Assembly (NCBI GenBank): GCA_026390815.1
Contig: JAPLFH010000040.1
Span: forward strand, 62,001 to 126,000
Origin: Ignavibacteriales bacterium
Lineage (GTDB): Bacteria; Bacteroidota; Ignavibacteria; Ignavibacteriales; SURF-24
DNA: 64,000 bases
Reading direction: 5' to 3'
How positions within the stretch are numbered: the first letter of the stretch is position 1; each line of letters opens with the position of its first letter. Shown here piece by piece: positions 10,077 through 16,677 of the stretch. Both the position numbers and the translations under genes were made by a program. The notes under the pieces were generated by a model. The model had not been told where the DNA came from, did not search any database, and was given only the letters and a program-made list of their open reading frames with translations.

Positions 10077-10955
10077 ATGAGAGCAATTATTCTGTTATTG
10101 ATTTTTCTTACTTCAACATGTTTTTCTATTCCCTCAAATAAAGATTCTAAAAATTGTTTTAGAGTGATGACTTATAATATCCGGTATGCCGGGGATAAAA
10201 TTTCTGATGGTACAAATGCCTGGGATAATAGAAAGGAATTTGTAAGTAAAACAATAAGATTCCACAAAGCTGATATAGTTGGTCTTCAGGAAGCGCTCAA
10301 GATACAACTTGATGATTTTAATAAACTTCTTCCAGAGTACATCCAAATTGGAGTTGGACGAGATGATGGAAAAGAAAAAGGGGAGTTTTCTGCTGTGCTG
10401 ATACGAAAAGATCGGTTTAAGATTTTAACCCAATCAACTTTTTGGTTATCAGAAACACCGGATCAACCATCCAAAGGCTGGGATGCCGCATTCCCTAGAA
10501 TTGTAACCTGGGCAAAACTTCTTGATAGCCAAACAAAAAAAATATTTTTTCTGTTTAATACTCACTTCGATCATATGGGTGAAGCGGCAAAGAAAAGCAG
10601 CGCAACTTTGATATTAAAAAAGATATCAGAAATTGCACCTGGTTTTCCGGTAGTTGTTACCGGCGATTTTAATTCACTTAAAGATTCTGATCCGTATAAA
10701 ATTCTAACCGAATCTAAAGGCAAAGATTCAAAGCATGAATTATTTGATTCTCAATTCATTTCGCAAAACGGGCATTACGGTGGCTACGTTAGCTTTAATG
10801 GATTCCAGGACACATTGGAAGTGAACAACAAGATTGATTACATTTTTGTTAATAAGAAAATAAATGTTTATCAGCACGGTATAATTGGAGAAAAAATTGA
10901 TGGGCGTTATCCATCAGATCATATGCCGGTTGTAGCGGATCTTTATATTAAGTAA
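10077..10955 (+). CDS. Secreted endonuclease/exonuclease/phosphatase-family protein
   Basis: A signal peptide spans about residues 1-20. The rest is one EEP domain with VMTYNIRYAG (first motif, Asn), IVGLQEA (Glu), FNTHFDHMGEAAR-like FNTHFDHMGEAAK, VTGDFNS (Asp/Asn) and the C-terminal SDHMPVVADL (Asp/His). These form the Mg-dependent hydrolase site. At 292 residues it matches small secreted EEP proteins of Bacteroidota, which hydrolyse phosphodiesters or phosphomonoesters of uncertain nature. It begins an accessory stretch after the transposase. GAAAGGGTAAACTAG before the ATG is a weak ribosome binding site. Confidence 0.85.
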   Translation: MRAIILLLIFLTSTCFSIPSNKDSKNCFRVMTYNIRYAGDKISDGTNAWDNRKEFVSKTIRFHKADIVGLQEALKIQLDDFNKLLPEYIQIGVGRDDGKEKGEFSAVLIRKDRFKILTQSTFWLSETPDQPSKGWDAAFPRIVTWAKLLDSQTKKIFFLFNTHFDHMGEAAKKSSATLILKKISEIAPGFPVVVTGDFNSLKDSDPYKILTESKGKDSKHELFDSQFISQNGHYGGYVSFNGFQDTLEVNNKIDYIFVNKKINVYQHGIIGEKIDGRYPSDHMPVVADLYIK

Positions 10956-10993
10956 ATCATCATGCTATAAGAATAAATATTTTTCTAAATCAT

Positions 10994-11042
10994 TCTCTAA
11001 CTCTTGTTCTTAATCTTGCTCTTGTTCTCTCTCTTGCTCTTG
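10994..11042. repeat. Dispersed intergenic repeat, copy 2, with hexanucleotide periodicity
   Basis: On the minus strand the segment reads as successive AGANNN units (AGAGCA, AGAGAG, AGAACA, AGAGCA, AGATTA, AGAACA, AGAGTT). It contains the TTCTTAATCTTG core shared with 52683-52760. It lies between the EEP and epimerase genes. Confidence 0.6.
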
Positions 11043-11141
11043 TGATGAAGTGGAACAAACGCGCCCATTACAAATGTTATAAGTGTGGTTAAGCAAGCAA
11101 ACAAATTTAAAATACAAAACACAAACAAATAAGATAAAATT

Positions 11142-12077
11142 ATGAGACATACAATTTTAGGCGCTGGTGGTTCAATAGGAAACGCACTAGCATATGAATT
11201 ATTAAAAACTAAAGATGATAACATTCGTCTTGTTTCGCGGAGCAACTATACAATACCAGGAACGGATTCGTTTAAGGCAGATATTACTTCCTATGAAGAA
11301 ACTTTGAATAGCGTTAAAAACTCCGATATAGTTTATTTAAGTGCAGGTCTTCAGTATGATACAAAAGTATGGACAGAATTGTGGTATAAGATTATGCAAA
11401 ACACAATAGATGCCTGTAAAAAAGTTGGAGCTAAATTGATCTTTTTTGACAACGTTTATATGTACGGTAAAGTAAATGGTAAAATGACTGAAACCACACC
11501 ATATAATCCCTGCAGTAGAAAGGGCGAAATAAGAGCAAAACTTGCAACTATGTTGGAAGACGAGTTTAAGAAAAAAAATATAAATGCTATTATTGCAAGA
11601 GCGGCAGATTTTTACGGTCCATATGCAACAAAATCCAGTGTACCATACGTATTAGCAATTGATAAATTAATGAATGGAAAAAGTGCGCAATGGTTAGTTG
11701 ATGTTAATAAACCGCATTCATTTAGCTATACAATAGATTGTGCAAAAGGACTAAAGTTACTCTCAAAAAGTGATGAATCATTTAATCAAATTTGGCATTT
11801 ACCAACATACAATCCTGCACTAGATGGGAAAACATTTATCAACCTGATTGCCAAAGAATTAGGTGTTGCTCCAAATTATTCTGTTCTAAAAAAATGGATG
11901 ATAAAAGCTGTTGGTTTCTTTAACAAAACTTTATCAGAAATTTATGAAATGCTTTACCAGAGTGAGTTTGAGTATTATTTTGATTCAACAAAGTTCAACA
12001 ATTTTTTCAATTATAAACCAATATCTTACGCTGAAGGAATTCACGAGACAATTGAGTTTATAAAAAAAAATAAATGA
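11142..12077 (+). CDS. NAD-dependent epimerase/dehydratase-like SDR protein
   Basis: The N-terminus has the nucleotide-binding motif GAGGSIG at residues 7-13. A NVYMYG segment occurs near residues 104-109, where extended SDRs carry the catalytic Tyr region, but the classical YxxxK is replaced by SRKGEIRAKL, so it is an atypical extended SDR. It resembles cytoplasmic enzymes acting on sugar nucleotides or other small substrates; the substrate cannot be predicted. The 311-residue length is complete. It is flanked by intergenic repeats and has no obvious partner gene. Confidence 0.78.
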   Translation: MRHTILGAGGSIGNALAYELLKTKDDNIRLVSRSNYTIPGTDSFKADITSYEETLNSVKNSDIVYLSAGLQYDTKVWTELWYKIMQNTIDACKKVGAKLIFFDNVYMYGKVNGKMTETTPYNPCSRKGEIRAKLATMLEDEFKKKNINAIIARAADFYGPYATKSSVPYVLAIDKLMNGKSAQWLVDVNKPHSFSYTIDCAKGLKLLSKSDESFNQIWHLPTYNPALDGKTFINLIAKELGVAPNYSVLKKWMIKAVGFFNKTLSEIYEMLYQSEFEYYFDSTKFNNFFNYKPISYAEGIHETIEFIKKNK

Positions 12078-12297
12078 AGACCATTAACAGATTATAAAAA
12101 CCGTAAGGATTCATTCGATTTACAGTGAAGTTTTACACCTGAAGACTTAAAGTTACTTGAATTATGTCGCAACGACCTTTCCTAAATTTTGGGGGTACTG
12201 TATTATTGAATAACAAAGTATTATAGTGAATTGTCTGAAAAGCTATTTCAATTTATATATACAATAATTAAGTTTGTTACGTAAAATCAATTTTTCT

Positions 12298-12798
12298 ATG
12301 AAACAAGCAGATATTGATGCCCTGATTATAATGCCTAAGCTTATTTCTTCTTCTACTAAAGGGAAGTTCAAGCTTATAAATAGAAGTAGAAGAATTAATC
12401 TTGAAGCGATTTCTGAAGATGAAAAAAATTCATTTGAAATATTTATAAGGCAAAGTGAAAAATTTGAAGAACGTTTTTCCATAGGCTTAATGTTAATTCC
12501 ACCGGAGGAGGATAATATAATATTAGTAAGATATAATGGAGTACATGGAGAGCATAAAAATTTATTTACTGACAGAAAAGTCTATTACTCTTTTCATAAA
12601 CATTATGCTACTGAAGAAGCAATATTGCAAGAAATTAAACCAGAACATACGGCAAAAGAATCTAATTACGTACATTTTAAAGGAGCCTTGATAAAGTTCT
12701 TCGAAGAATTAAATTTTATCAATTATAAAGATTATTTAAAAATTTTTGAAATAGAATACGAGGATCCTGACCAAACGAATTTATTTGGAATACAATGA
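12298..12798 (+). CDS. Protein of unknown function resembling DUF6978, first gene of a two-gene cassette
   Basis: The ATG at 12298 is preferred (166 residues) over the upstream TTG at 12274. The sequence begins KQADIDALIIMPKLI, and has a central region IILVRYNGVHGEHKN that resembles, by memory only, the DUF6978 family. There are no signal peptide, membrane segments or recognised catalytic motifs. The stop overlaps the start of the next gene by 4 nt (ATGA), so the two proteins are almost certainly made together. Such tightly paired small genes in variable DNA are often toxin-antitoxin or defence modules, but nothing in this protein proves that. Confidence 0.6.
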   Translation: MKQADIDALIIMPKLISSSTKGKFKLINRSRRINLEAISEDEKNSFEIFIRQSEKFEERFSIGLMLIPPEEDNIILVRYNGVHGEHKNLFTDRKVYYSFHKHYATEEAILQEIKPEHTAKESNYVHFKGALIKFFEELNFINYKDYLKIFEIEYEDPDQTNLFGIQ

Positions 12799-13568
12799 AT
12801 GAAGTAAACGAAATAAGGAAAATACTAACAAGTCAATTTTCGGATTTGTTTGATATTAAATTAATAAGACCTAATATTTACCAGGTAATGCTTCCTTTCT
12901 ATTATCCCGATGGCGATATATACGAGATTTTTATTGAGAAAAATAATGGCAATTATATAGTTCAGGATTATGGTTTGTCTTTAATGAAATTATCATATGA
13001 CACTGAAACAGAAACGGATTCAAAAAAAGATTTGATAAAAAAAATAATATCAGAAAATCAGGTAAAATATGATTCAGGGAATATTTATCTGCCTTCTGAA
13101 CAGGATTCACTGATTCCTAATCTATTGGCAATTATAGATACTATTACAAAAATTACATCGCTTAATGTGTTAAATAGAAAACTCATTAGAAATGTATTTT
13201 ATGAATTATTGGAATCATTTCTGTCAGAAAAATTTAAAGATTACGGTTTTGAAAGAAAATTTATTCCTGATGCAGTCCCTTTTGCTTCTGATTATTTAGC
13301 ACCCCATGCAATAACCAAAACTAAATTGAACACACCTATTTGTATATTTCCTATTGCTTCCAATGATAGATGTGACCAGGTTACAATTACTGTACAGCAT
13401 TATTTATTGAGCAATTATCATCCTTTGTTAATTGGGATATATGAGAACATGGAAGATATTTTTCCTAAAAAGAGTTCAAAAGTAACTAATCTTTTAGACA
13501 AACAATTTTCTTACCTGGATAAAAACGAAGAATTTATTAGCAGCTATTTGGTTGAACGAATTAACTGA
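12795..13568 (+). CDS. DUF1828-domain protein, second gene of the cassette
   Basis: The N-terminal part shows a compact strand-rich module, DGDIYEIFIEKNNGNYIVQD followed by YGLSLMKL (about residues 37-65), which matches the DUF1828 pattern of an acidic, glycine-turn beta domain. The C-terminal 150 residues are helical with a strand-rich end, without motifs that I recognise. At 257 residues it has no signal peptide or membrane segment and is predicted cytoplasmic. It starts inside the end of the preceding gene (ATGA). The biochemical role is unknown. Confidence 0.6.
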   Translation: MNEVNEIRKILTSQFSDLFDIKLIRPNIYQVMLPFYYPDGDIYEIFIEKNNGNYIVQDYGLSLMKLSYDTETETDSKKDLIKKIISENQVKYDSGNIYLPSEQDSLIPNLLAIIDTITKITSLNVLNRKLIRNVFYELLESFLSEKFKDYGFERKFIPDAVPFASDYLAPHAITKTKLNTPICIFPIASNDRCDQVTITVQHYLLSNYHPLLIGIYENMEDIFPKKSSKVTNLLDKQFSYLDKNEEFISSYLVERIN

Positions 13569-13806
13569 CCATTATACTTTTTCACTTGGTTGTCATGAAC
13601 TATAAGAATTTCCGAGAATTCATTTCCCTAACTTTTGCCAAAGCCTGAATGGTAATCTTGTTGACATCAATTTTTCAATTCACTATGTTTCAAACAAAAT
13701 ACTACTCTAATTACTTAGATAATTACTGTTCTTGCAAAAAAAAATATTCTAATATTTCGGAAAATAATTATGCTTTTATAAAAAATAACACGGATTTTAA
13801 AAATAA

Positions 13807-14877
13807 ATGTTAATCGCTATAAATGAAAGTGGAGATAGAACCAAACCATATAAAAAAGGTATTGGACTATGCCCTATTTGTATGGATAAAGTTCAGGCCG
13901 TATGTGGACCAATAAACAAGCATCATTGGCGTCATGCACCTAATCCCCGTTGTGATCCTTGGCAGGAACATGAAACAGAATGGCATAGGCGATGGAAAAG
14001 CGAATTCCCAGAAGATTGGCAAGAAATTATAATAAACAAAAATGGAGAAAAACATAGAGCTGATATAAAAACCACGAATGAATTGGTAGTAGAATTCCAG
14101 AATTCTTCAATTTCAGCTGATATAATAAAAGAAAGGGAAACCTTTTATGAGAAAATAATTTGGCTAATAAATGCAAATAATTTCAAGGATAATTTTAAAT
14201 TTGGGATGAAGGCACCTCAAGATTTGGTTGAAAATTCCTGTCTCCGAATTATAAATGAGAATTTAAAAAAAGAGAAAGAAGAGATTGATTCACTCAAATC
14301 GAAAATTCAAGAGAAAAATATTGAGTATTTGCATTATGTTGATACAATTAAAAATATTGTTTCTATTTACCAAGATCTCTTGAATAGGAAATGTGATTAT
14401 CATTATCCATTCCCTTCAAGTAATAAATTATTCAATGAGTTGAAGGGAATCCGACAAAAGCAGGCTAAAGTGTATACTGAGCTCGAAGATTTAAAATTAA
14501 AAAAGAAAACATTTCTAAATTATGAAAAGTGCCCAAAATATGAGTATAAAGATTATAGTATAATATCATTTGCAGATATAAATAAATTGAATTTCAGAAA
14601 ATGTAAAGTAATTGAATCCTCTACAATACATGAATTATTTCCAATGGTTTATGACTTGAATAGTGAAAATGATTTTCAATATTTTAAGAGTCATCCTAAT
14701 AAATATAAGTTAATTATAAATCTTACTGATAGTATTAGAAACATTGATGAAAAGATGGAAGTCAATGAAAATGAAATGGAAATATTAAACAGTATCAAGG
14801 ACAATATTAAAAAGGAAATATATAATTCTCTTTCAAGTTGGTTAATAAAAAAAAAGAAGAACTTGAAGAAGAGTTAA
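13807..14877 (+). CDS. CoiA-like competence/nuclease-family protein, zero-frame product ending early
   Basis: Residues 20-115 carry the CoiA-like nuclease pattern: a CPIC zinc-type pair at 22-25, HHWRHAPN at 39-46, EHETEWHRRWK at 54-64, HRADI at 83-87 with D86, and VVEFQNSSIS at 94-103 with E96 and Q98. This matches restriction-endonuclease-like domains of CoiA relatives, a family linked to natural transformation. A coiled-coil region follows. Frame zero stops at 14875-14877 after KKKKNLKKS, but a -1 reading continues the coiled coil for 99 more residues. The gene is AT-rich, stands alone and lies within accessory DNA. Confidence 0.75.
   Translation: MLIAINESGDRTKPYKKGIGLCPICMDKVQAVCGPINKHHWRHAPNPRCDPWQEHETEWHRRWKSEFPEDWQEIIINKNGEKHRADIKTTNELVVEFQNSSISADIIKERETFYEKIIWLINANNFKDNFKFGMKAPQDLVENSCLRIINENLKKEKEEIDSLKSKIQEKNIEYLHYVDTIKNIVSIYQDLLNRKCDYHYPFPSSNKLFNELKGIRQKQAKVYTELEDLKLKKKTFLNYEKCPKYEYKDYSIISFADINKLNFRKCKVIESSTIHELFPMVYDLNSENDFQYFKSHPNKYKLIINLTDSIRNIDEKMEVNENEMEILNSIKDNIKKEIYNSLSSWLIKKKKNLKKS
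14850..14856 (+). promoter_or_regulatory. Candidate -1 frameshift slippery heptamer A AAA AAG
   Basis: In the reading frame of the CoiA-like gene the sequence is A-AAA-AAG, the same heptamer used in E. coli dnaX. It lies at the end of a run of nine A (14847-14855). A -1 shift would join KKK to EELEEELKKIEWK and give a protein of about 449 residues. Polymerase slippage on A9, or a sequencing or real indel, would have the same effect. Confidence 0.5.
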
Positions 14878-15155
14878 AAAAGATAGAATGGAAATTATCA
14901 TATCTTGAATCAGAAAATTCAAAACAGCAAACAATTTATGATAAGAAACGTGTTTTACTAAAAAATAAACTTATTCGACATGACGGCTTATATAAATACT
15001 ATTGGAATTATAAAAGAAAATCGTGGGAAGAATCAAGTAAGAATTTATATTTCGATTTTGGTGGTTGTATCTTTGAAATACTAAATGATAGTTTCTTAAG
15101 AAAAATTACAAAGGATGAGTTTATAAAAGAAATAATGAGTTTTGAATGTCAGTAG
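14856..15155 (+). CDS. C-terminal portion of the CoiA-like protein in the -1 frame
   Basis: This frame encodes 99 residues. It opens with a charged helix (EELEEELKKIEWKLSYLE) that continues the coiled coil of the upstream frame, then a compact end with KYYWNYKRKSWEESSKN and FGGCIFEIL. As a separate gene it could start only at TTG 14838, which has no ribosome binding site and overlaps the preceding frame by 40 nt. I therefore read it as the tail of the preceding protein, reached by frameshifting, or lost by a frameshift mutation. Confidence 0.6.
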   Translation, partial: EELEEELKKIEWKLSYLESENSKQQTIYDKKRVLLKNKLIRHDGLYKYYWNYKRKSWEESSKNLYFDFGGCIFEILNDSFLRKITKDEFIKEIMSFECQ

Positions 15156-15297
15156 TTCATGCTCTATTTGTATTTTAGAAAGTTTTGGCAGTTCAGTGCA
15201 TTGGTAAGGTTGCAATAATGAATTAAGATACTTTTGTAATTCCAAACTGCGCATACCTGCAAACCGTTGCTAGAAATTATACGAACAATAAACATTT

Positions 15298-16266
15298 ATG
15301 AAAAATTTACTTTTAACTCTTTCACTTGCATTACTTGCAAGTACCCTTTTTGCACAGACAGAGAAAGCTGTTTACAAATCCGTTGCAGATAAATTAGAAT
15401 ACTTTTATAATACTGAAAAGTATGACAGTGTGTTTGCTTTGTTTTCAAGTGAGATGCAAAATTTCTTGCCTCTTAACAAAACAATCGATTTTTTAACCGG
15501 CTTAAAATCGCAGGCAGGAAAAATTACAAAGCGGCAGTTCGTGAAGTATGTAAACGGAACATATGCTTCTTACAAGACAAATTTTGAAAGAGCTTTATAT
15601 GCTGTAAATATTTCAGTTGATAATAATTCAAAAATTAATGGATTATTTGTAAAACCTTTTACAGAAGACAATTTGCCAAAGATTGATCGTAACTCAACCA
15701 AATTAACACTTCCATTCAAAGGTGAGTGGACAGTTATTTGGGGTGGCGATACAAAAGAATTAAATTACCACATTGAAAGTCCCGCACAGAAAAATGCTTT
15801 CGACTTTGTAATCACTGATATTAAAGGAAATTCCTTTAAGACAGATGGTAAAACGAATGAAGATTATTATGCTTTTGGTAAAGAGTTAATAGCACCCTGC
15901 GATGGAGAAATAGTTTTAGTTGTTGATGGCGTCAAGGACAACATACCAGGGAACCTGAATCCAGTTTATCTTCCGGGAAATACCGTTATTATAAAAACTA
16001 TGAATAACGAATATTTGTTCTTTGCACATTTCAAGCAGCATTCAATTAAAGTTACCGAAGGACAAAAAGTTAAACAGGGAATGGTTTTGGGACTCTGTGG
16101 CAATTCAGGAAACTCATCTGAGCCACATTTGCATTTTCACATTCAGAACGTAGAAGATATGAATGTTGCAACAGGTGTTAAATGTTTCTTTGATAAGTTA
16201 ATTGTAAACGGACAGACAAAAACAGATTATTCACCAATTAAAAAAGACAAAATTAAAAGCGAATAA
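15298..16266 (+). CDS. Exported M23-family peptidase
   Basis: A signal peptide covers about residues 1-19 and ends at LFAQ. The N-terminal 120 residues resemble a small helical DUF3887-like domain, a tentative call. The C-terminal LytM domain holds AFDFV (metal-ligand Asp), IIKTMNNEYLFFAHF and HLHFH with H277, H279 and H281. The usual first zinc-ligand His four residues before the Asp is not present (Lys there), though many exported relatives share this. It may cleave peptidoglycan cross-bridges or may be a divergent non-catalytic form. It is complete at 322 residues and appears monocistronic. Confidence 0.82.
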   Translation: MKNLLLTLSLALLASTLFAQTEKAVYKSVADKLEYFYNTEKYDSVFALFSSEMQNFLPLNKTIDFLTGLKSQAGKITKRQFVKYVNGTYASYKTNFERALYAVNISVDNNSKINGLFVKPFTEDNLPKIDRNSTKLTLPFKGEWTVIWGGDTKELNYHIESPAQKNAFDFVITDIKGNSFKTDGKTNEDYYAFGKELIAPCDGEIVLVVDGVKDNIPGNLNPVYLPGNTVIIKTMNNEYLFFAHFKQHSIKVTEGQKVKQGMVLGLCGNSGNSSEPHLHFHIQNVEDMNVATGVKCFFDKLIVNGQTKTDYSPIKKDKIKSE

Positions 16267-16677
16267 AAACATGGTAATTCTTTCGGTTATAATTTAATCT
16301 AATATTTTTTTCACGTTCTATTTTTCCCCTGTAAGTTTAAGCAGTACAATTTTTAAAGGGATGGATTGGGTATACGAAGTATCTTTTGTAACAAGCTTAA
16401 ATATGACTATTTATAAAACCTTATTGACTTAAACCAATCCGTTTGTTAAGTTGAAAGCAAAATTTTACTTTCCTTGTTTTGAAAAAAGAAATTATAATTA
16501 CTACGGAATCAAAGTTGAACGGTGAGGAGTTAGAAAAACTCGAGTAAAGATATTTGATAATTAAAGTTTCCGCTTTACACCTAATCAAGGATTTTTGACC
16601 TTGATAGATATAGATAACATTAATGGCACGAGCTATTCCTGCTGGGACAAAAAGATCAAAGCTTTTGGGAGGATGGG
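16267..16677. other. Intergenic region, 411 bp, no gene recognised
   Basis: No ORF with a convincing start or family resemblance is seen on either strand. The last 60 nt contain the ribosome binding site of the next gene (GGGAGGATGGG). A short 5-bp stem (GAGTT/AACTC near 16527-16541) is too weak to name. The base composition is uneven, with a more GC-rich part at 16600-16660, which may be a remnant of something lost. Confidence 0.5.

Follow-up and report, generated by a model that had tools for sequence, protein, structure and literature searches.

Probable frame break at an A9 tract in an accessory CoiA-like nuclease gene of an Ignavibacteriales bacterium

A CoiA-like gene of an Ignavibacteriales bacterium, analyzed here in a window of 64,000 nucleotides (the whole stretch of DNA examined), is divided between two reading frames at a run of nine adenines (A9). 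Comparison with uninterrupted homologues indicates that the frame entered beyond this run encodes a conserved C-terminal domain. The reading that we favor as probable is that a change of one base, in a poly-A tract coding for lysine, broke an accessory CoiA-like nuclease gene lying in a defence slot, with nothing to indicate that slippage at the tract has been selected.

Structure of the split gene and its uninterrupted homologues

The features of the locus are given in Table 1. Across the tract the zero frame reads ATA AAA AAA AAG AAG AAC TTG AAG AAG AGT TAA, with the stop codon at 14875-14877, and the in-frame A_AAA_AAG heptamer followed seven codons later by this stop was found exactly as the initial annotation had described it. 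A -1 shift at the tract leads to a stop at 15153-15155, giving a fused protein of 449 aa. The -1 frame is open over 99 codons and carries no further lesion; its starts in the ORF list include no ATG and only the TTG at 14838, upstream of the A-run, in agreement with the earlier description of a 99-residue frame without a good start.

Table 1. Coordinates of the features discussed, in positions of the window.
Feature	Position	Strand	Description
Left flank common with relative G949	10077..10955	+	DNA match 10149-10946
Neighbour DUF6978 / PADLOC PDC-M24A-like	12274..12798	+	Pfam 7.7e-08, PADLOC 1.4e-05
Neighbour DUF1828 / PADLOC PDC-M24B-like	12795..13568	+	Overlaps DUF6978 gene; Pfam 3.6e-13, PADLOC 3.2e-13
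Zero-frame ORF, 356 aa	13807..14877	+	CoiA-like N-terminus and nuclease region followed by coiled coil; ATG start 13807
-1 frame ORF	14838..15155	+	Rest of coiled coil and conserved C-terminal domain; aligns with C-termini of L011, L012 and L022, tail common to L091
A9 tract, frame-break site	14847..14855	+	G at 14856
In-frame heptamer A_AAA_AAA	14847..14853	+	Second heptamer, absent from the initial annotation
Zero-frame heptamer A_AAA_AAG	14850..14856	+	Sequence inspection
Right flank, M23 peptidase gene	15298..16266	+	81% identical protein in G949; DNA match 15298-16267

The CoiA-like label previously given to the gene was borne out in Pfam searches, CoiA_nuc (PF06054) scoring 23.1 bits with the zero-frame protein and 21.5 bits with the fused protein against a cut-off of 20.3. 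CoiA_N (PF25164) scored 14.7 bits, below its cut-off of 26.3, and at an E-value of 0.01 CoiA_nuc matched one of the four members of alignment A1. An AlphaFold model of the homologue L022, generated from a nine-row alignment (A2), had a mean pLDDT of 79.3 and a pTM of 0.46. It comprised a nuclease-like N-terminal part, a long helix (residues 318-419) and, at the C-terminus, a small domain of strands and helix (residues 426-474) with low to middling confidence. The model served solely to place the break, which according to it sits within the long predicted helix, ahead of the small C-terminal domain.

Four unsplit long homologues were found, L011 (491 aa), L012 (488 aa), L022 (478 aa) and L091 (430 aa), all uninterrupted through the region of the break. 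In a single alignment, from which L091 was left out and to which the identities and alignment columns given here refer, L011, L012 and L022 shared 35%, 29% and 40% aa identity, respectively, with the fused protein, and an invariant tail pattern (G-Y-W-KRK-W-DF-L-F) was common to these three proteins and the -1 frame of the window. Since the homologues pass through the break region without interruption and have this C-terminal domain at their ends, the -1 frame is real coding sequence, and the split, judged by this comparison, is more than a chance juxtaposition of open frames: the -1 frame encodes a domain conserved in the homologues. None of the long homologues found stops at the zero-frame stop, the observation that the initial annotation had named as pointing to a non-coding second frame, and its proposals of a split gene with a full length of 449 aa and of a coiled coil carrying on over the break are likewise supported by the unsplit proteins. 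A regular expression for the tail motif detected the tail in at least 18 of 28 rows, a lower bound given by an expression that proved too strict, as it missed L022 (DFD in place of DFG/Q) and, through its start filter, the -1 frame of the window, both of which carry the tail in the alignment; the argument made here does not depend on this count.

The same four homologues bear on the reading of the locus as two overlapping but separate genes, with the -1 frame starting on its own at TTG 14838. A TTG start is present at this position; however, the coiled coil is continuous here in all four unsplit homologues, which largely refutes the two-gene reading and leaves it extremely improbable. The locus should be annotated as a single gene of 449 aa carrying a frame break and not as two proteins.

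The long form of the protein is sparsely distributed. A search with the fused protein found matches in 11 of 395 genomes of the phylum, its own included; G088 and G250 matched unbroken over query residues 1-443 and 2-443, respectively, and the other eight matched in the nuclease part. Scanning a collection of 84,980 species with the zero-frame protein returned three loci, one of them the long homologue L022 (from UBA5697). A profile built from four sequences matched four of 199 genomes in the family of G088, including G088 itself and G510, the source of L091, and in the order to which G250 belongs, a profile search matched seven of 128 genomes, G250 included. Among 391 genomes of the window's own class, five had a match, with no long homologue besides the window's own, and these genome searches found no close relative carrying the CoiA-like gene. 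No close homologue was found in an annotated phage collection. Plasmid records gave 43 matches, none covering 80% of the query, and among the matches listed it was the nuclease part that aligned. Viral contigs gave no match to a single-protein query and eight loci, matching the nuclease part, to an alignment query. One viral contig matched a 21-base pattern laid over the site and was dismissed as a chance match, as it encodes no relative (best tblastn E 0.16).

The break itself is not shared. The longest A-runs in L011, L012, L022 and L091 are of 9, 8, 8 and 9 nucleotides, in frame at their own codons 357, 399, 418 and 357, respectively, those of L011, L012 and L022 falling at alignment columns other than that of the window's tract, and all four unsplit long homologues read through the site. 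The break thus belongs to the genome of the window and is not conserved among these homologues. Two further relatives are broken elsewhere. In L093 (from G403), which has the nuclease part and the tail, the reading frame shifts within the nuclease region, where there is an A8 run, and in L092 (from G517), a shorter relative that shares the C-terminal tail and lies near a McrBC gene, an in-frame TAG lies inside a conserved stretch of the nuclease region. Counting the window, seven loci combine the nuclease part with the tail (most with a coiled coil between them), four being unbroken and three broken, each differently, in keeping with frequent loss of an accessory gene. Some of the broken loci may be draft errors.

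Defence-type surroundings of the gene

Two genes upstream of the CoiA-like gene resemble PDC-M24A and PDC-M24B, a candidate defence pair in PADLOC (Table 1), while no PADLOC model was matched by the window's CoiA-like protein itself. In G949, a relative from the same family and another genus, the same two flanks enclose a 1016-aa type IIG restriction-modification enzyme. The slot extends over 10956-15297 in the window and over 7196-11222 of L131 in G949, and its contents differ between the conserved flanks; it is likely to be a defence hotspot. No CoiA-like relative was found in the G949 genome in a search run without a positive control. Near the homologues were an nSTAND3 protein with an HNH-effector-like start, McrBC genes (at two loci), a KAP NTPase and a RES protein, and a CoiA-domain protein is described among validated anti-phage systems (PMC9519451). 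Given the PDC-M24-like pair, the type IIG enzyme in the corresponding slot of G949, the neighbours of the homologues and this anti-phage precedent, a defence role for the CoiA-like gene is likely as far as gene content can tell. From the description in PMC9519451, the two proteins have in common a CoiA domain and a defence-type neighborhood, whereas a long coiled coil and the lack of a PADLOC match set the window protein apart.

A-run statistics and programmed frameshifting

The zero-frame ORF contained an A-run of at least nine in 67.8% of 2000 synonymous-codon shuffles. The gene is rich in lysine and AAA codons, so that an A9 is expected from its composition. In the wider genome, 425 kb were sampled, covering all 41 A9G sites and the A9 runs in the same stretches. 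Among the 62 runs of A9 or longer examined there, that of the window alone resembles a split gene; apparent splits at A9 runs in L035 (position 12611) and L086 (position 2172) were rejected because their translations, read by eye, look like ordinary gene junctions. The former we take to be a junction from a HypB-like to a HypF-like gene, and the latter presumably involves the gene preceding an M20-like peptidase. As a separate count, GAAAAAAAAA had 67 matches in the genome and was commoner than AAAAAAAAAG, with 41.

These counts bear on the possibility that the consensus miscounts the homopolymer and that the true gene is unbroken. A homopolymer that is off by a single base, with the second frame otherwise intact behind it, is how an assembly or sequencing error classically looks; however, none of the 61 other runs of A9 or longer resembles a split gene, so there is no general weakness of the assembly at runs of this length, and the genome has a completeness value of 99.96. 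We consider an error of this kind unlikely.

The share of A/T runs lying inside ORFs of at least 150 aa in the 425 kb fell from 72% at lengths 5-7 and 65% at length 8 to 50% (28/56) at length 9 and 17% (1/6) at length 10 or more (Fisher p 0.0005 for length 9 versus 5-7). The organism of the window therefore seems to shun runs of this length, a sign of selection against slippage-prone runs that suggests slippage of its polymerase on an A9. Avoidance of runs is reported to become visible from length 9 in many genomes (Baranov et al. 2005, PMC1088944).

Variation of the tract length within the population, toggling the nuclease between a full-length and a truncated form, would be an alternative source of the break. 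Defence genes can carry a cost, which counts in favor of such phase variation, and L093 is likewise off frame at an A-run, in a different place. Poly-A tract variation has also been estimated at about 1000 times the frequency of an average point mutation (PMC2831843), a variability in keeping with this alternative. However, the tract is unconserved and expected from composition, and phase variation appears distinctly unlikely.

The initial annotation had also put forward a programmed -1 frameshift of the dnaX type. The 101 nt past the heptamer (14857-14957) had a folding z of -0.28, a stability that 69 of 200 shuffles reached or exceeded, and a downstream stem-loop stimulator was rejected on this value. 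In one 101-nt window a hairpin enclosing the A9 reached z = -2.56, but of 250 windows taken along the gene 32 were at least as stable, and this hairpin was rejected as well. No Shine-Dalgarno-like stimulator was seen just before the tract in a by-eye, unscored reading of the sequence. The genome carries both tRNA-Lys CTT (L043) and tRNA-Lys TTT (L053), as assigned by ARAGORN, which was applied to 30 of the 46 tRNA hits, and so differs from the single tRNA-Lys state of E. coli. The E. coli site is described as shifty because its sole tRNA-Lys pairs weakly with AAG, while CTT and TTT tRNA-Lys together are described as giving tighter AAG pairing and making A_AAA_AAG less shifty; for Thermus, which has two lysine tRNAs, polymerase slippage on A9 is described, perhaps for this tRNA reason (PMC5009743). 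With a break that is not conserved, RNA structure that is unremarkable and offers no stimulator that stands out, separate tRNA-Lys for AAA and AAG and an A-run expected by chance, the dnaX-type programmed frameshift is not supported.

The same results weigh on the broader proposal of an evolved dual-product gene, in which, as with tssM1 or dnaX, slippage or -1 frameshifting would yield a long and a short product that are both functional. The layout is the same as that described for Citrobacter rodentium tssM1 (PMC4256274), both heptamers are in frame and the second frame is intact. Against this, the site is unconserved in homologues, neither the downstream RNA nor the tract hairpin is exceptional by the values given above, and the presence of both tRNA-Lys is said to lower A_AAA_AAG shiftiness (PMC5009743). 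A dual-product gene is thus very unlikely.

Proposed course of events and comparison with known systems

In the favored reading, the gene encodes an accessory CoiA-like nuclease that combines a long coiled coil with a conserved C-terminal domain, and it lies in a swappable defence slot; as comparison with the unsplit homologues shows, a change of one base in the poly-A tract within the coiled coil has put it out of frame. The main product would then be the 356-aa protein, in which the long helix is cut short by its second half and the C-terminal domain is missing, and would probably be impaired. The A9 lies at the break and one added transcript base restores the frame to give 449 aa; as a tract of this length is long enough for RNA polymerase slippage, a minority of transcripts would probably gain one A and some 449-aa protein is probably made. 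A -1 ribosomal slip would be expected to yield the same protein, and if full-length protein is made, we infer that polymerase slippage is the likelier route versus ribosomal frameshifting. Transcript rescue could also be negligible, since E. coli RNA polymerase is reported to slip little on poly-A reporters, with hardly any rescue (PMC6260861). The intact 99-codon second frame would equally fit continued use of the full-length protein. Taken together, we read the locus as a frame break of an ordinary kind, located at an A9 prone to slippage in an accessory nuclease gene of defence type; the break may be leaky.

Among described cases, C. rodentium tssM1 comes closest; there an A11 lies 28 nt before a stop and both variants are reported to be made and needed (PMC4256274). 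As in that account, the window has a poly-A tract just ahead of a premature stop and a conserved C-terminal domain in the other frame, but its tract is an A9 and not an A11, and two products were demonstrated for tssM1 whereas here they are predicted at most. The window also resembles the disrupted 9A/9T ORFs described by Baranov et al. 2005 (PMC1088944) in having an A9 at the break, a frame restored by one additional A and a disruption recognized against unsplit homologues; it differs from the cases described there in being an accessory nuclease gene and not an IS gene, and in being known from DNA alone. An A9 run and two lysine tRNAs are shared with Thermus thermophilus dnaX, which uses transcriptional slippage at A9, and an in-frame A_AAA_AAG with E. 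coli dnaX, which uses ribosomal frameshifting. However, the zero frame of dnaX gives the long product and slippage the short one, whereas in the window the zero frame gives the short product, and the window has neither a conserved site nor a stimulator that was found. In a literature search over titles and abstract openings, no paper on frame-broken CoiA-like defence genes was found, which leaves their absence from the literature unproven.

A bolder view would make the A-tract a tuned switch of a defence nuclease, keeping the enzyme mostly in a silent, truncated 356-aa form until slippage adds the C-terminal domain and arms it. We regard this as highly improbable; if it were true, slippage would perhaps be raised by phage infection or by a slip-prone phage RNA polymerase. 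As an ordinary frame break, the locus adds to the bacterial genes interrupted at an A9 prone to slippage, the gene being that of an accessory nuclease of defence type and not part of an insertion sequence. CoiA-like proteins of the long form, with their coiled coil and C-terminal domain and found mostly beside defence-type genes, may merit testing as a separate defence family.
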